Origin: Subtercola boreus
GTDB lineage: Bacteria; Actinomycetota; Actinomycetes; Actinomycetales; Microbacteriaceae
Reading direction: 5' to 3'
Length of the DNA stretch: 35,116 nucleotides
Assembly (NCBI RefSeq): GCF_003399625.1
Contig: NZ_NBXA01000013.1
Location: 1-35,116 of the forward strand
This document shows, piece after piece, positions 15,510 through 31,140 of this stretch. How positions within the stretch are numbered: the stretch's first letter is position 1; every line of letters begins with the position of its first letter. The position numbers were made by a program, and so were the translations under genes. The notes beneath the pieces were generated by a model, which was given only the letters and a program-made list of their open reading frames with translations, made no database searches and was not told the DNA's origin.

Positions 15510-18133
15510 TTCGCCATCGCCAATCGCCAATTGAGGTCGTTCGCTACGGTCTGACCGATGACACGCTCATCGGTCCCCGCTGAGGGATGAACATCCACCT
15601 GAACCTGAGCGCCAGCTACTACCGGCGCGATCGTCGGAGAAGCCGTGACAGCCCCGCCAGTCGCATAGTGCGGGGCCGATGCAAGAGACTGACGGAACCC
15701 GTACACGGCCGCCTGACCGCCCATACGAGACACATCCGTCGCGGTCAGCACGTGTTCACCAGGTGCGAGCATGGCAACCACGGAGTCCTTCCCGATCGGA
15801 CCGGGACCGGTGACCTGACCGCCGTCCGCATACGCGGCGCCAACCTCACCGCGAGGAGCGCCCGTCTGTTTGATCACCTGATTGATGACCGTCTCGCGGT
15901 AACCCGGAATGGTCGCGATAGCGTTGGCGACAGCCATCGCTTGCTGAATCGCCTCAGATGAACCAGTGACCGCGACAGAAGTGGCGATGCTCCCGGGGAT
16001 CAGGCCGAGCTTGTCGGCGTAATCCTGCGCGGCCTGACCGTTGATACCGAACTGGTCGAGGGCAGCGATGAGCTGATCCCGGCCGTTCTGAATCGCAGCA
16101 GCAGCGTCCTCCTGTGAGCCGGTCTGAGAGAGAGTCGCCGACGACAGTGCAAGTGTCGACTTCGCAATGTCGTCCAGCCCGGCCTGGTTCGCTCGGCCCT
16201 GCTCGGTGCCGATGTCGAGAGTCGCACCATTCGTGGCAAGAGTTTTCTGCAGGTCATCGAGAGATGCCTCGAAATCGCGGGTCGCCCCGTTCACGTCGAG
16301 CTGCGTCTTGCCGAAACCCTCAATCGTAGATTTCAGCGACTCGATGTCGCCCTTAGCGTCAGAAGCCGAGATCGCGACACCATCGATCGCACCCGAGATG
16401 TTCTCCGTCGCGCTTGCGGCCTTGTCTGCGACCGCCGCCTGATCGATGAAAGCCTGACCCGAATCCTCCACCGATGTCCGCAGTTTAGAAATGTTCTGAC
16501 CAGCGTTATACGCGCCGAGTGAAGTGCCATCGAAGATGCCCTGGAATGTGTTGGTGTCGACGATCTTCTTTTGCACCGAGTCGTACGCGTCACCACCCTT
16601 CAGGATGGCATCTGTGAGCTCCGTCTGCCCAACACCGGCCTTCTTCGCGGCCTCGAACGAGCCGTCCTCCGAAAGCTTGCGTGCGATCGCAGCGCGAGTG
16701 TAGTTCGTGGTCGCGCCTGTGGCCTTGTCGAGAGTGTCAACAAGCTCAGCCGTCGTCGCCTTTATCTCTGCCTGCTGTGCGACATAGCTACCAACGACGA
16801 CGGTAGCGATAGCAAGACCAGCGCTCAGGACGCCGACGCCGAGAGCGGCAGCTTTCGCGCCACCACTTACCCCGTTCATCGCAGCCCGAAAGGCAACGAT
16901 CTTCGGAACAGCCAGCAGCGCGCCGCCACCGACCAGACCAATGGCCCCGACAAGAACTGTCAAGGCAAGTCCCACATTCAGAAGCTCGGGCGGCGCACTA
17001 CCGAACGAGTCCACGAGGAACGTTGCTGACTGGGTGAGATCACGGAGCGTGCCGTTAGCGCCAGAACCGGACTGGATGAGGGCTGTATCGAACGAGCCGC
17101 CCAGCTTCTCCACGTCACCGCGGAGGTTGTCGAGCTTAATGCGTGCCGTCTCGGCCGCGTACCCCTGGTCGTTGGTCTGGTCGATGTACTTTTGGATTCC
17201 CGCAGCTCCGAGATCCAGCAGCACGTTCGACGCCCGCACTGCATCGGAACCGAAGATGATCTTCGACGTCGCCGCCTGCTGCTCGGGAGACAGATCCTTG
17301 AGCGCGTTCTTGTAATTTCCGGCGAACTGGGAAATGCCGATGAACTTGCCAGATGCGTCGAACGCGCTGATGCCCAGTCGGTCCATCTCCGTCTTCGCCT
17401 GAACAGAAGAAGGCACAAGGGACTGCAGCATTGTCTTAAATGAGGTTCCGGCGTCCGAACCAATGAGGCCCTGATCTGCGAACGCGGCGAGCGTGCCAGT
17501 GGTCTCCTCAATCGACAGACCCATGCCCTTAGCAACCAGACCTGACTGACCGAGAGCCGCAGCAAGATCCGAAACGTCACCAACAGCCTTGCCCGCGCCA
17601 GCGGCCAGAAGGTCGGCGACATGAGGCACATCGGAGCCCTGCAGATTGAACTGCTTCACGGCGACGGCCGCGATATTAGCCGCGTCTGCCACCTCGAGAC
17701 CGCCAGCGGACGCCAGCGACAGCGCACCGTTCAGGCCGCCACCGAGGATCTGCTGCGTGGTCAGACCAGCCTTAGCCAGCTCCTCGATTGCGTTCGCCGA
17801 CTCTGTTGCCGAGAAAACGGTTGCCCCACCTGCGTCGATCGCAGCCTGACGTAGCAGATCCATGTCCGCAGCCGTCGCGTGAGTTGCGGCCTGAACTGAC
17901 GAGATAGCCTGATCGAACTCCGCGTACTTCGCAACCGCCAGAGCAACACCGGCAGCCGCGAGACCACCGACCGCGAACAGGGACTTGCCGAGAGTTTCGA
18001 TACCCTCACGACGCTGAGAAAGACGTTCAGCTTCAGTTCCGGTGGCACGGGTCGCCTCAGCGGCCTGGTTCATGCCTGAGATGTAGGAAGAAACGTTGGC
18101 GACGAGACTTACTCGGGTGGTACGGTCCGTCAC
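15506..18133 (-). CDS. Tape measure protein
   Basis: At 875 residues it is the longest gene in the window. An N-terminal VSLVANVSSYISGM segment (8-21) is followed by a helical stretch and a TP901/PhageMin-type tail domain (about 70-360, including NGALSLASAGGLEVADAANI at 135-154). Hydrophobic segments at about 390-460 probably insert in the host membrane during DNA entry. The C-terminal part has the common GGxVTGPG...APGEHVLTA motif. The length sets the tail length. It follows the tail chaperones and overlaps Dit by four bases. Parts of its N-terminal region reappear in the small protein at 30249-30527. Confidence 0.95.
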   Translation of the reverse strand: MTDRTTRVSLVANVSSYISGMNQAAEATRATGTEAERLSQRREGIETLGKSLFAVGGLAAAGVALAVAKYAEFDQAISSVQAATHATAADMDLLRQAAIDAGGATVFSATESANAIEELAKAGLTTQQILGGGLNGALSLASAGGLEVADAANIAAVAVKQFNLQGSDVPHVADLLAAGAGKAVGDVSDLAAALGQSGLVAKGMGLSIEETTGTLAAFADQGLIGSDAGTSFKTMLQSLVPSSVQAKTEMDRLGISAFDASGKFIGISQFAGNYKNALKDLSPEQQAATSKIIFGSDAVRASNVLLDLGAAGIQKYIDQTNDQGYAAETARIKLDNLRGDVEKLGGSFDTALIQSGSGANGTLRDLTQSATFLVDSFGSAPPELLNVGLALTVLVGAIGLVGGGALLAVPKIVAFRAAMNGVSGGAKAAALGVGVLSAGLAIATVVVGSYVAQQAEIKATTAELVDTLDKATGATTNYTRAAIARKLSEDGSFEAAKKAGVGQTELTDAILKGGDAYDSVQKKIVDTNTFQGIFDGTSLGAYNAGQNISKLRTSVEDSGQAFIDQAAVADKAASATENISGAIDGVAISASDAKGDIESLKSTIEGFGKTQLDVNGATRDFEASLDDLQKTLATNGATLDIGTEQGRANQAGLDDIAKSTLALSSATLSQTGSQEDAAAAIQNGRDQLIAALDQFGINGQAAQDYADKLGLIPGSIATSVAVTGSSEAIQQAMAVANAIATIPGYRETVINQVIKQTGAPRGEVGAAYADGGQVTGPGPIGKDSVVAMLAPGEHVLTATDVSRMGGQAAVYGFRQSLASAPHYATGGAVTASPTIAPVVAGAQVQVDVHPSAGTDERVIGQTVANDLNWRLAMAK

Positions 18134-25922: not shown

Positions 25923-26443
25923 CTAGTAGTACACGTATTCGTCTTCGTCGGCCGTATAGCCAGCAGCGATAACATCGCCGGCAGCCTCATGGGCCAGCAC
26001 TGACGACATGGCAAGGTCGATCTTCTGTGTCTCGGACGCCTTGAAAATGAGGTACTTCTGTCCGGACCGGGCAACTTCGACAGCGTTACGGATGTGCGTG
26101 CCGACCGTCTCGTCACCGTCATGAGTGAACTGCGACTCGGGCAGCATCACATCGGTTTTCATCCGCTCGAGAGCAGCGTGCATCTGGGTCGGCCGGTATG
26201 TCTCCCAGCGAAAGACCCGCTTCGGGTACTTCGCCTCGAGCCCATCAATCTCCGACTGCCAGAACGGCGGGTCGCAGTAAGCACGCACCACGTCGAACTG
26301 TTCGAAAATCTCGTCAAACGCTGCCAGGATCTCCAACCGCGGAACTCGGCCGTTGTGCTGGCGCGGGTCCCAGATGGTCGGTCGGCCATCATGGTAAGTC
26401 GGGGTGAATTGGTAGCCGTCGAGCGTTTCGGCTCTAATACCAG
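25923..26443 (-). pseudogene. Large terminase subunit, C-terminal part (cut by IS)
   Basis: This is the 3' piece of the terminase gene, running from the IS target site to TAG 25923. It carries the rest of the nuclease domain: residues RAETLDGYQF continue the frame, then YCDPPFWQSEI and QKIDLAMSSV hold the other acidic residues expected for metal binding. Joined to 27867-28934 with one copy of AATACCAG removed, it makes an unbroken 526-residue protein. In its present state it has no start of its own that would give a working enzyme. Confidence 0.9.
26436..26443. repeat. Target site duplication AATACCAG (left copy)
   Basis: AATACCAG lies directly outside the left end of the IS256-type element and is repeated at 27867-27874 outside the right end. 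Eight bases is the usual duplication for this family. Confidence 0.95.
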
Positions 26444-27866
26444 GGTTACGTCCCTGCGAGTGGTGTGGTTTCTGGCTACTAAGCGTTGCTTCGTCAACGT
26501 AAGGAGCCACCGTGGGATGGTCAGTGAGTACCGACTAAAGCAACTCACGAAGGACACCACACGATGGCTCTAGACCAGTCTGCCCTGCTCGACCTGCTAG
26601 GAGAACTCAAACTCACCGACGTCACCGACCGAATCCGCGTCGCAACAGAGACCCTGTATCAAGAATTGATCGATGCCGAAGCGACCTCGTTCATCGGTGC
26701 CGCCCCGTTCGAACGCACCGGCGACCGCACCACCCACCGCAACGGCACCCGGCCCAGGACACTGTCCACGACGGCTGGGGACCTGGATTTGAAGATCCCG
26801 AAGCTGCGTGCCGGGTCGTTCTTCCCGGCGCTTCTTGAGCGTCGCCGCCGGGTCGATCAGGCGTTGTTCGCGGTCGTGATGGAGGCCTACGTCCACGGCG
26901 TCTCGACCCGCAAAGTCGACGATCTCGTCAAAGCGCTCGGCGCGGATACGGGGATCTCGAAGTCGGAAGTTTCTCGGATCTGCGCTGGCCTGGACGCGGA
27001 GGTCGCCGAGTTCCGCGACCGGACCCTCGCCGCACAGGACTTCCCCTACGTGTTCCTTGACGCGACCTACTGCAAGGCCAGGGTCGGTCACCGGATCGTG
27101 TCCCAAGCGATCGTCGTCGCGGTCGGTGTGGCCGCTGACGGCCGCCGGGAAGTGCTCGGCTTCGACGTTGGCGACAGCGAAAACGAAGGCTTCTGGACGT
27201 CGTTTCTGCGGTCGCTGAAGACCCGGGGCCTCGACGGGGTCAAGCTGGTCATGTCTGACGCGCACACTGGCCTGAAGAAGGCCATCGGGACAGTGTTCCA
27301 GGGCGCCGGGTGGCAGCGGTGCCGGGTGCATTTCATGCGTAACGTCCTCGCCGTGATCCCGAAAGGCTCCCAGGACATGGTCGCGTCGATCATCCGCACG
27401 ATCTTTGCCCAGCCCGACCGTCAGCACATCGAGAAGCAGTTCCGCGAGGTCACCACGATGCTCACCCGATCCCACCCGAAAGTCGCCGCGATGCTCATCG
27501 ACGCCCAACCCGACCTGCTCGCGTTCGCCGCGTTCCCCAGGCGGCACTGGCGCCAAATCTGGTCCACGAACCCGCTGGAACGGGTGAATAAGGAGATCAA
27601 ACGACGCACCGACGTCGTCGGCGTGTTCCCCAACACGGCCGCCCTGCTGCGCCTGGCCGGGGCGGTCCTGATCGAGCAGCACGACGAGTGGGAAGCCGGC
27701 GAACGACGCTACTTCTCCGAAGCATCCATGCTCGAGCTGGCCACCATGAACAACCCCATCCAACCCCCCAACGAGGCGGTGATCCTCCCCGAACTCGCCG
27801 CCGCCTAAACTAGAACAACTGACCCGCACGGTGTTGAGAAACTCCACCACTCAGCGGGACGTGACC
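26444..27866 (+). mobile_element. Complete IS256-family insertion sequence
   Basis: The element is 1423 bp and is flanked by an 8-bp direct repeat. Its ends are imperfect inverted repeats (26444-26473 and 27837-27866), matching at 24 of 30 positions: both start GGT-ACGTCCC and share GAGTGGTG and GTTTCT. One transposase fills most of the element. It sits in the large terminase gene, in the opposite orientation to the phage operon. The matching target duplication shows a simple insertion without later rearrangement, so it is probably recent. Confidence 0.95.
26564..27808 (+). CDS. IS256-family transposase (mutator type)
   Basis: This 414-residue protein is full length for the family. The DDE catalytic residues are visible: D166 in VFLDATYCK, D232 in VMSDAHTGLKKAI, and E339 in NPLERVNKEIKRRT. 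The conserved C-x2-H motif is CRVH (C253, H256). The N-terminal part contains the family's RNGTRPRTLSTTAGDLDLKI segment. It inserts the element with an 8-bp duplication, through a copy-out circular intermediate in known relatives. The ribosome site AAGGACA precedes the ATG. It appears intact. Confidence 0.97.
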   Translation: MALDQSALLDLLGELKLTDVTDRIRVATETLYQELIDAEATSFIGAAPFERTGDRTTHRNGTRPRTLSTTAGDLDLKIPKLRAGSFFPALLERRRRVDQALFAVVMEAYVHGVSTRKVDDLVKALGADTGISKSEVSRICAGLDAEVAEFRDRTLAAQDFPYVFLDATYCKARVGHRIVSQAIVVAVGVAADGRREVLGFDVGDSENEGFWTSFLRSLKTRGLDGVKLVMSDAHTGLKKAIGTVFQGAGWQRCRVHFMRNVLAVIPKGSQDMVASIIRTIFAQPDRQHIEKQFREVTTMLTRSHPKVAAMLIDAQPDLLAFAAFPRRHWRQIWSTNPLERVNKEIKRRTDVVGVFPNTAALLRLAGAVLIEQHDEWEAGERRYFSEASMLELATMNNPIQPPNEAVILPELAAA

Positions 27867-28934
27867 AATACCAGTCCAGTCATCAACATCAGACCCGTCG
27901 AAACCGAGCACAATCGGTGTCTTATCGGGCACCACATGCGTGGCCTTCTTCGACTCCCATCGTGCGAAGTCCAACCATGCCCCGGAACCAGCGACGATGC
28001 GGTTACCGAAGAACCGTTCCGCCTCAGCCTTGTCCTTCTGAACGAGCTCGGCAGCTTCAGCCTCGATCGCAGCAACGGATACCCACGGGGCGCCCGCATA
28101 GTTGAAAACGAACATCTTGTGACGGTCACGCTTGTCACCGAAGCTCAGATGCGCGGGCGGCTGGCGGAAGTCCTTATTGATGTCCTTCGACGGTGCCTCG
28201 AAGGTGCGCTGGGCGACGGAATCCTGTGCCGGGTCCCACGCGTTCGTCGTTTCGATTGCCCGACCACCCATGCCGGCGAGACCACGACGCTGCGTCGACG
28301 CGAGCTTGTGCCCGCCATTCGACTTCACCCACAGGCCTGTCTCATCCTGCGGCGCAAACGTCACACGCTGACCGAGGCGAGAGTTTGCCTTCGACGTGAC
28401 CACATCGATTCGGCCACCACCGGGAAGGCGGATGAACTCCTCGCCCGTATGCCGAATGATCTCAGCCAACGGGCCTAGCTCAATCATCGGGCGAAGTGCG
28501 TCATACGTGTTGTCGGTCTGGTCTTCGGACGTAGCAGTGATCTGAATAAGCGGCGTCGACCACGGACGGCCCATCGGCTCGCCCTGGTCATACTCATACG
28601 CCCACCCGCAACCACAACCGAAGTCGCGGCAGTCGTACATCTCGCGGCCGGACGCGAACCCATCGAACAAGACAGGGCCGACACCCTCCACGCAGACGAA
28701 CGCGCCGATCAGCGGAGACTTGCCCCACTTCTGAGCACGAACCAACTGCGAACGACGGAAGATAAAAGCTTCGGCCTTCTGACCCACCAGCGCATCCGAA
28801 CGAACCATGTAGTGATTCGCGACGAATGTGAACTGCTCATCACCGAGCACGAACGGGTTGCCCCGGTTGTCGCCATCTGGGATCACACAGTGCTGCTCAA
28901 CCCACTCAGGGACGATCAGCAGCGGGCTAGCCAT
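27867..28934 (-). pseudogene. Large terminase subunit, N-terminal part (cut by IS)
   Basis: This 5' piece of about 356 codons starts at ATG 28934, eight bases inside the end of the small terminase gene. The ATPase domain has an atypical Walker A (RAQKWGKSPL, about 66-75) and a DE pair (FAPQDETGLW, D197/E198). The nuclease domain begins at FDGSDVDDW, with D346 as a first metal ligand. The native frame stops at the IS boundary; read-through adds 18 IS-coded residues before a stop. With packaging motor nuclease lost, the prophage should be unable to package its DNA by itself. Confidence 0.93.
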
Positions 28935-29818: not shown

Positions 29819-30169
29819 TCAGTGGGTGTTGTGCCATCCGCCTGGCTGTTCCTGCGCTGTGGATCTGTCGTGACATGGTTTGCATAGTCCACGGCCATGG
29901 TCGGGGTCGTTGCTGTCCATGCCTTGCGCGTCGAGGTCACGCTTGGATGTTGGGTAGTGGTCGGCGACTGTTGCTTGTGCTGTGTGGCAGATGACGCAGA
30001 TAGGGTCGCGTGTAATAACTTGGTTGCGGAAGACACGGTGTCCTGTGCCTGTGTACCCTCGCTGTGTGGCCGTGCCTCTGCGTTGGTCTGCTGTGCGTGT
30101 GTGTTGCGGGCAGCGCGACTCTGTGCTGTCGTAGATGGTTGGACATCCTGGTGTGCTGCACACACGCAT
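29819..30169 (-). CDS. HNH endonuclease
   Basis: This 116-residue protein has an N-terminal Cys pair (CSTPGC, CPQH) and a C-terminal HNH domain: CVICHTAQATVADHYP (C58, C61, D70-H71), then DPDHGRGLCKPCHDRST (C96, C99, H100). The second zinc pair and the DH/N/H residues are of the phage type found beside terminases. HK97-type phages need this enzyme with TerL/TerS for cutting at cos ends. Start at ATG 30169, two bases after the stop of a tiny zinc-finger frame. Confidence 0.9.
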   Translation of the reverse strand: MRVCSTPGCPTIYDSTESRCPQHTRTADQRRGTATQRGYTGTGHRVFRNQVITRDPICVICHTAQATVADHYPTSKRDLDAQGMDSNDPDHGRGLCKPCHDRSTAQEQPGGWHNTH

Positions 30170-30172
30170 GCT

Positions 30173-30259
30173 CTACCTCTTAGCGCAGTGTGTGCGTGCG
30201 ATGGAGGGGACGACGCATGCTTGCCCGCAGGTGGGGCAGTGCCACCGGTCAGCCTGCAT
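30173..30259 (-). CDS. 28-residue zinc-finger microprotein (putative)
   Basis: The ATG at 30259 lies inside the last codons of the mini tape-measure gene (11-base overlap counting its stop), and the stop is three bases before the HNH start. The product has WHCPTCGQACVV followed by THC, a C-x2-C...H-C pattern able to bind one zinc ion. It may be translated by coupling, since only a distant AAGGA precedes it. Tiny zinc-ribbon genes are common in actinophages. It could instead be chance coding. Confidence 0.45.
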   Translation of the reverse strand: MQADRWHCPTCGQACVVPSIARTHCAKR

Positions 30260-30527
30260 TGCGTAGCTGGTAGTCCTTGATGGCCGTCACGACTATGCCC
30301 GCTGTCTTGCTGGTGTCCATCCCGCCGGCACTTGCCAAGGCGATGACGCCCTTTGCTGCGTCGGGTAGATCTCGCTCAGCGATACCGAGGGCACGCAGTT
30401 CGGCTGCAAGCTGTGATGTAACGAGCCTTGCCTGTTCCATTCCGGCGACGTACCCGCTGACGTCGGCGGTGAGCGTCTCTTTGACCTTGCGGCCTTTGTC
30501 TTCGGCATCGGATGCGATCGCGTTCAT
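30249..30527 (-). CDS. Mini tape-measure-like protein (92 aa)
   Basis: Two segments resemble the tape measure protein at 15506-18133. Residues 19-34 (TLTADVSGYVAGMEQA) match TMP residues 9-24 at 9 of 16. Residues 59-88, around ALASAGGMDTSK, match TMP 134-163 at 12 of 30 without gaps. In TMP the two are about 110 residues apart; here they are joined by 24 residues. It overlaps its upstream neighbour by ATGA. Found with early/middle genes upstream of the terminase, not the tail cluster. It could be a deletion derivative of a TMP or a protein selected to interact with tail components; function is not known. Confidence 0.7.
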   Translation of the reverse strand: MNAIASDAEDKGRKVKETLTADVSGYVAGMEQARLVTSQLAAELRALGIAERDLPDAAKGVIALASAGGMDTSKTAGIVVTAIKDYQLRNAG

Positions 30528-30790
30528 GGCTGCTCCTTCATGCTGTATTCGTGCGCGAGTGCTGAGGCAACACGGACGGCGTCATTGCCGTACTGCTTCG
30601 CCCATGCGAGATACTGCTGCTCGTTCGTGCCTGGTGTCGCTACGAGTTGTTCGACCCATTCGCGGTAGGTCGTGTTCGGCGCGACGGCCCGCATTGCTAT
30701 GACGAGTGATGTTGCTTGGTCGTCACCGATGAGTCCGCAGCGACGGAGGATGTCTGAGGCTTCGGCGAGTTCAGCGATCGTTGCTCGCAT
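30524..30790 (-). CDS. Small helical phage protein
   Basis: The start is ATG 30790, with GGAGA upstream. The 88-residue product is helical throughout (IAELAEASDILRRCGLIGDD, EQQYLAWAKQYGNDAVRVAS), without membrane segments or zinc motifs. It overlaps both the upstream gene (20 bases) and the mini tape-measure gene (4 bases), so the three are one translational unit. I do not recognise the family; the acidic helical pattern resembles small DNA- or protein-binding adaptor proteins. Confidence 0.65.
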   Translation of the reverse strand: MRATIAELAEASDILRRCGLIGDDQATSLVIAMRAVAPNTTYREWVEQLVATPGTNEQQYLAWAKQYGNDAVRVASALAHEYSMKEQP

Positions 30791-30983
30791 CTGCTGTCTC
30801 CTGCCATTCATAGATCGGGCTACCCATTGAGTCGATCCGCACTGGTGTTAGGTGGTCGTTTGCGTTGGTAGCGCCGTGCGTAGGGAATGTTGGCAGCGGC
30901 GTTAGGGCCAGCAGTATGGTCTTGAGCGCTACCCCGTTCTGGGAGGCTGTCGGGCATCCCGGGTGCGCTGGGTGACCGCTCAT
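30771..30983 (-). CDS. Small hypothetical phage protein
   Basis: ATG 30983 has AGGAG six bases upstream. The 70-residue product has a Pro/Thr-rich N-terminal half and an ordered end (ANDHLTPVRIDSMGSPIYEWQE). It is first in the unit leading to the mini tape-measure gene and HNH endonuclease, and is about 85 bases downstream of the tRNA-Trp. No known domain is seen. Confidence 0.5.
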   Translation of the reverse strand: MSGHPAHPGCPTASQNGVALKTILLALTPLPTFPTHGATNANDHLTPVRIDSMGSPIYEWQETADASNDR

Positions 30984-31069
30984 GACTGCTCCTGACGGAT
31001 ACATGGTTACTGACCGTCATGTGTCGTGAGCGGCCGACGAAAGGCTACGTGCACCCCGAACCGGCCTAG

Positions 31070-31140
31070 CTGAGTGTGCAGGAGTCGAACCTGCGCTTGT
31101 CGGGTTGGAGCCGACTGTGCTTCCGTAACACTTACTCCCA
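31070..31140 (-). tRNA. Phage-type tRNA-Trp (CCA anticodon)
   Basis: On the minus strand a complete 71-base cloverleaf can be drawn: acceptor TGGGAGT/ACACTCA (one A-A mismatch, one G-T pair), D-arm GTGT-TACGGAA-GCAC, anticodon arm GTCGG-CTCCAAC-CCGAC, variable AAGC, T-arm GCAGG-TTCGACT-CCTGC, discriminator G. The loop gives anticodon CCA (Trp). No CCA tail is encoded (CTA follows). The mismatch leaves activity open, but the arms are otherwise sound. tRNA genes inside late-operon spacers are frequent in actinophages. Confidence 0.8.

Follow-up and report, generated by a model that had tools for sequence, protein, structure and literature searches.

The question raised by this locus is why a small gene that adjoins the HNH endonuclease and terminase genes of a Subtercola boreus prophage should resemble a tape measure protein (TMP). 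The window, meaning the whole stretch of DNA that was analysed, comprises 35,116 nt of contig NZ_NBXA01000013.1, and the gene in question, P0001 (here the mini-gene; coordinates of this and other features are given in Table 1), specifies a protein of 92 residues. Judged from sequence comparisons, P0001 is probably a chimeric accessory gene derived from a TMP, and the place that it occupies, where the packaging/late gene cluster begins, is probably a recombination hotspot.

Table 1. Features of the window that bear on the origin and setting of the mini-gene.
Feature	Coordinates	Strand	Evidence or remark
Mini-gene P0001, TMP-derived, 92 aa	30249..30527	-	ATG start, TMP family matches
Segment 1, TMP N-terminal motif (RKVKETLTADVSGYVAGMEQA...), residues 13-45	30393..30491	-	Profile domain 1
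Segment 2, start of PhageMin_Tail/TP901 domain (ELRALGI...LASAGG...YQL), residues 42-90	30258..30404	-	Profile domain 2
Ribosome-binding site and first ~31 codons	30436..30537	-	Sole part of the mini-gene with DNA homology (89%) to the S. boreus relative
Copy B of 17-bp near-repeat, AGGAGCAG[T/C]CATGA[G/A]CG	30521..30537	-	Ribosome-binding site and start
Copy A of 17-bp near-repeat	30977..30993	-	15/17 identical to copy B
ORF of 95 aa in insertion	30524..30811	-	Weak MvaT-like matches only, below cut-offs
Second ORF in insertion, 70 aa from internal ATG at 30983	30771..31004	-	
Leader, tRNA to first small gene	30977..31071	-	92% identical in S. boreus prophage
tRNA-Trp, upstream of small genes	31069..31140	-	
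HNH endonuclease gene, just downstream of mini-gene	29819..30169	-	phrog_589, E 4.2e-19
Full tape measure protein, 875 aa	15506..18133	-	phrog_1533, E 3.2e-92; TIGR01760, E 3.6e-55
Own-TMP region resembling segment 2	17636..17788	-	32% identity over 50 aa
Own-TMP region resembling segment 1	18017..18130	-	Sequence match

Several TMP families matched the mini-protein, specifically phrog_1533 (residues 42-89, E 2.2e-5), phrog_4704 (residues 39-90, E 1.2e-4), NCBIfam TIGR01760 (residues 33-89, E 1.7e-5) and Pfam PhageMin_Tail (PF10145; residues 39-89, E 5.9e-4), with the scores for the last two (24.0 and 20.2 bits) falling below their curated cut-offs of 28.8 and 33.2 bits. It resembles these TP901-type TMPs in that both of its halves match, and in the same order, but differs from them not only in failing to reach the curated cut-offs but also in size and place, as it has 92 aa (the prophage's own TMP has 875, and the long TMP frames at least 560) and lies outside the tail cluster. 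Its sequence homology to TMP segments is beyond chance, as judged by shuffle tests. The profile used for these tests was built from 25 Microbacteriaceae TMP frames, with up to 320 residues taken from each. It comprised 24 of the 26 long frames of a scan of the family, together with a truncated frame (L026); the window's own TMP formed one row, neither mini-protein was included, and the long frames left out were the S. boreus TMP (L112) and L040. On the mini-protein it gave two collinear domains with a total of 37.1 bits, model positions 13-45 aligning to residues 13-45 and positions 126-175 to residues 42-90, and the best of 10,000 shuffles (5,000 per mini-protein) reached 16.1 bits. When scored alone, residues 1-48 gave 40.2 bits and residues 39-92 gave 25.3 bits, and neither value was matched by any of 20,000 shuffles. 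The evidence for segment 1 comes mainly from residues 13-30, because residues 31-48 alone were weak (160/20,000 shuffles, and 391/20,000 for the counterpart in the relative described below). The sequence-only reading had proposed that this 92-aa gene joins two separate pieces of a TMP, and this was borne out.

The two segment profiles were also run against 3,786 frames of 30 aa or more, drawn from the window and from 13 loci. At E <= 1 the segment-1 profile matched TMPs and mini-proteins only, and the segment-2 profile matched the window ORF (E 3.2e-5) as well as TMPs, plus a single chance frame (E 0.57). Both segments are also carried by the TMP of the siphophage Footloose. When the second half alone was searched against 279 genomes, 13 matches in 10 genomes were recovered at E <= 0.02, one of them the mini-gene itself, and eight of the other twelve were TMP genes according to the segment profiles or to reading (one each in G025, G258, G011, and G109, two in G203, and two in the own genome, of which one was the own TMP); the remaining four, in G130, G024, G076, and G037, had no segment match at E 0.1. 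The profile phrog_12051 (49 aa, unknown function) matched residues 59-92 of the mini-protein (E 0.006), and among 40 genomes it gave three weak matches, one being the mini-gene. A PDB sequence search with the mini-protein returned a single insignificant match (E 1).

In all 25 of the profiled TMP frames the two segments are separated by 71-81 residues, and in the two unprofiled TMPs by 72 (L112) and 180 (L040) residues, whereas in the mini-protein they abut. The fusion is real, because both TMP segments exceed chance and the spacer that is present in TMPs is gone here. It had been noted earlier that the spacer was mostly missing, and this holds, but the length then given to it, 110 residues, is replaced by the 71-81 residues of the profile boundaries. 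In addition to the spacer, the mini-protein lacks everything beyond about TMP residue 166. Its origin would lie in a deletion within a TMP gene, by which a TMP-like coding sequence may have lost both of these stretches.

The prophage's own TMP does not appear to have been the recent source. Among 26 TMPs it ranked only 16th in similarity to the first half of the mini-protein (15 were better) and sixth, tied, for the second half (5 were better), and a recent copy is not supported, in agreement with the earlier view that the gene is no recent local duplicate. A deletion via short direct repeats was likewise considered and not supported, as the 25 TMP genes showed no excess of microhomology between the sites where segment 1 ends and segment 2 starts (mean longest match of 5.9 nt, compared to 5.7 nt in controls).

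A search with P0001 found the mini-gene or a relative in two of 12 Subtercola genomes, its own and that of S. boreus P27479 (NZ_NBXB01000017), where a gene of 122 aa occupies the same locus (L003, 10001-10369 including the stop codon). The early, packaging, and head genes that were compared share 94-98% DNA identity between the two prophages, while their tail genes diverge (the TMPs show 57% identity over 419 residues, compared with G203:C17:12001-31000). At the mini-gene itself, DNA homology extends from position 30537 to 30436 of the window (89%), then disappears, and returns at 30254, at the stop codon. The relative retains segment 1 (35.7 bits, 0/20,000 shuffles) but at most a trace of segment 2, since residues 37-80 scored 7.2 bits (19/20,000 shuffles as good), residues 37-122 scored 5.5 bits (141/20,000 as good), and the segment-2 profile gave no match at E <= 1. 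About 50 residues at its C-terminus have no counterpart in the window protein, and its weak family matches were to phrog_35646 (sporulation protein; E 0.0044, residues 12-91) and phrog_9658 (head-tail connector; E 0.044, residues 71-120). Common descent of the two alleles appears clear for the first ~30 residues, and is left open for the fusion itself. The sequence-only reading had suggested that orthologues be compared for fusion point and gene neighbourhood, and in this single relative the neighbourhood and segment 1 are kept, but segment 2 survives as a trace at most and the C-terminal end is different, an outcome that leans partly towards the variable end points that the same reading had named as refuting it. 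Overlapping the 3' end of the mini-gene is a very short, Cys-containing ORF of 28 codons (...CPTCGQACVVPSIARTHCAKR; window 30259-30173, minus strand), and the S. boreus prophage has a similar stretch (CPVCGQACVVPS...) at the corresponding position.

Gene order on the minus strand of the window prophage is primase/helicase, a 282-aa protein (phrog_1467, function unknown), a small HTH protein, tRNA-Trp, the small genes, HNH endonuclease, terminase, and head genes. The mini-gene lies 12 kb from the TMP gene, as remote from the tail cluster as had been stated, and its translational coupling was also described correctly, its ATG being overlapped by the stop codon of the 95-aa ORF (ATGA). Its assignment to the early/middle genes is doubtful, as it follows the tRNA and lies directly upstream of the HNH, terminase, and head genes; by position alone, the mini-gene would be expressed with the packaging/late cluster, at whose head it lies. 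In the S. boreus prophage the conserved leader runs directly into the mini-gene, with no ATGA overlap with the 95-aa ORF, and the window differs in carrying an insertion of ~456 bp between leader and mini-gene, bounded by the two copies of the 17-bp near-repeat. A terminator-like hairpin is present between the HTH gene and the tRNA (31466-31443), but two such sites were found where 2.1 would be expected from shuffles. Immediately before the ribosome-binding site that serves the first small gene lies an inverted repeat (TGACGG...CCGTCA) that is conserved in both prophages (window 31019-30993; L003 9965-9991) and is possibly an operator or an RNA hairpin.

Variation at this site extends beyond the two prophages. 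Seven loci with homologous flanks gave no match to the mini-protein, its relative, or a TMP at E 0.01. Three of them have an HNH match (L081 in G250, L084 in G160, and L056, an IMG/VR contig) and carry other ORFs upstream of the HNH gene; the four without an HNH match are uninformative on this site. Gene content thus varies between conserved flanks in the S. boreus prophage, L081, L084, and L056, which is the pattern of an exchange hotspot. Nuclease genes are described as marking exchange boundaries in phages, with a hotspot upstream of terminases, in passages of PMC10448857, and the window is alike in that the gene content next to its HNH gene, ahead of the terminase genes, is mosaic. The TMP genes given as examples in those passages are split by introns and are not mini-TMPs. 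The HNH proteins of the two prophages (window 29819-30169; L003 10449-10799) have a similar start and later diverge, with 74% identity overall, and the HNH gene is possibly the site of another intragenic breakpoint.

The large terminase gene of the window prophage is interrupted by an insertion (26443-27867) that is absent from the S. boreus prophage. Within it, on the plus strand, is an ORF for a Mutator-family transposase (26564-27808; PF00872, E 7.8e-134), and an 8-bp overlap of the terminase flanks in the relative is likely to represent the target-site duplication. Going by its sequence, the window prophage is probably defective in packaging.

Searches for further examples showed how isolated the mini-gene is. 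A profile of the N-terminus, made from an alignment (A2) of six TMPs and the two mini-proteins, gave 31 matches in 29 of 398 genomes of the family, of which 26 were in frames of at least 560 aa, and the five short ones were the mini-gene, its S. boreus relative, L026, L035, and L043, the last being a frame antisense to a 528-aa ORF. The 396 genomes of the order yielded 15 matches, spread over 14 genomes, and the mini-gene was the only short one. The two genome sets overlap and hold one genome per species, covering part of the family, and within them the profile scans detected no other intact stand-alone mini-TMP. L026 (170 aa) and L035 (187 aa), both from Microbacteriaceae, resemble the mini-protein in being short frames that start with a TMP N-terminus. 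Neither is a fusion, however, as L026 keeps the spacer (76 residues) and stops after segment 2, while L035 has no segment 2 match, and from their sequences both look like broken TMP genes. The TMP-like frame of L035 (1105-1623) runs into a tandem HGPRSTV repeat and is apparently a degraded TMP.

Other collections gave the same picture. Phage records searched with P0001 (tblastn, E <= 1) yielded two records, both with E 1, and a search with the relative yielded three matches with E values of 3-7. The only viral contigs recovered were the window's own and L002, which over the compared stretch is identical to the S. boreus prophage. Within the genus, P0001 had a third match (L101, E 0.0012), which showed no segment match and reads as an unrelated protein, as do two shorter frames from the second-half search (L111 and L113), which also had none. 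No wider family of stand-alone mini-TMPs was found in the family, order, phage-record, and viral-contig searches, nor was such a protein encountered in the titles and abstract openings of literature on truncated, partial, or duplicated tape measures. P0001 is a rare, patchwork accessory gene, so far found only in two closely related prophages.

The mini-gene has coding-like codon usage, scoring 0.25 bits per codon in frame, compared to -0.18 or less in the five other frames. Codons 1-30 score 0.42, codons 31-92 score 0.17, and the S. boreus relative 0.48, values that can be set against a range of 0.13 to 0.51 for the 13 training genes. The score does miss genes, since the HNH gene scores -0.21 in frame. 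Over codons 1-28 the two alleles differ by five synonymous and three amino-acid-changing codon differences, which are too few for a test of selection. Predicted models of the mini-protein and of the N-terminal 300 residues of the TMP are helical, but of low confidence (mean pLDDT of 59.0 and 58.9).

The two TMP segments of the mini-gene, the missing spacer, the mosaic breakpoints, and the 5' part shared with one relative are directly supported, and they are consistent with a shortened TMP-like gene that has come to lie between the tRNA and the HNH-terminase module, where related prophages vary in their small genes. A small, probably helical protein may be translated from it. What such a protein might do is far less certain. 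A tentative suggestion is that it binds the partners of the TMP N-terminal region, either the chaperone or other TMP chains, and competes with full-length TMPs; that the N-terminal part of a TMP binds the tail chaperone is an assumption, and the prophage's own tail might be spared by the low similarity of the mini-protein to its own TMP. Taken further, a prophage mini-TMP could act as a decoy that ties up chaperone or TMP oligomers, blocks the tails of competitors, and has been recruited as a defence gene, but this is improbable. A passenger ORF in an exchange hotspot, i.e. a chimeric frame left by recombination beside the HNH gene, open by chance or recency and without a role, has about the same likelihood as any functional reading. 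Such a passenger fits the origin proposed here and is a rival only to the functional readings. It is given a little less than an even chance, and is favoured by the breakpoints within the mini-gene, the different C-termini of the two alleles, the interrupted terminase gene, and a distribution limited to two of 12 Subtercola genomes, with no intact stand-alone frame elsewhere in the scans. Accessory genes of this prophage may not be under selection now, because a transposase sits inside the large terminase gene. Against a passenger are the intact start signal and reading frame in both alleles, the codon scores, which are coding-like for either half of the mini-gene as well as for the relative, and the TMP-like segment 1 that both alleles carry (40.2 and 35.7 bits).

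A dominant-negative mini-TMP, which would block or tune the assembly of tails, those of its own or of an incoming phage, through the chaperone or TMP oligomers, is unlikely, although the protein does combine a TMP N-terminus with the start of the conserved TMP domain and is not specially close to its own TMP. There is a precedent for a prophage blocking tail assembly through the TMP, in that passages of PMC10884400 describe Tab, a tail assembly blocker of the Pseudomonas phage JBD26, and the mini-protein would be alike in action if it interferes with TMP-driven tail assembly. According to the same passages, however, sensitivity to Tab maps to the C-terminal region of the TMP, which is absent from the mini-protein, and the HNH/terminase neighbourhood would suggest that the gene is expressed late and not in the lysogen. 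Another system, SNIPE, associates with TMPs during injection (passages of PMC13190303), and as far as these two sets of passages go, neither Tab nor SNIPE involves a TMP fragment. The PADLOC library (2023) gave no match to the mini-protein at E <= 1. It is rather less likely still that the N-terminal ~40 residues, though TMP-like, are a 5' module that moves between genes, promotes translation of whatever cargo lies downstream and has no link to tails. What follows the shared 5' part does differ, being a TMP segment in the window phage and an unrelated C-terminus in the relative, and the inserted stretch has a copy of the ribosome-binding site and start on either side; but segment 2 of the window protein is itself TMP-derived and in TMP order, which would be unexpected for random cargo, and the relative may retain a trace of it (19/20,000 shuffles as good).

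The chimeric, TMP-derived origin preferred here for P0001 has consequences whether or not the gene has a role. As a passenger, it would be a clear case of chimeric small ORFs arising and persisting beside HNH genes, at the boundary of the packaging module, and would caution against assigning function to such fusions. Should the protein be produced and prove to bind TMP partners, it would show that phages can put pieces of the tail ruler that is essential to them to use as regulators or weapons, and the mini-protein would help to map the parts of TMPs that contact those partners.
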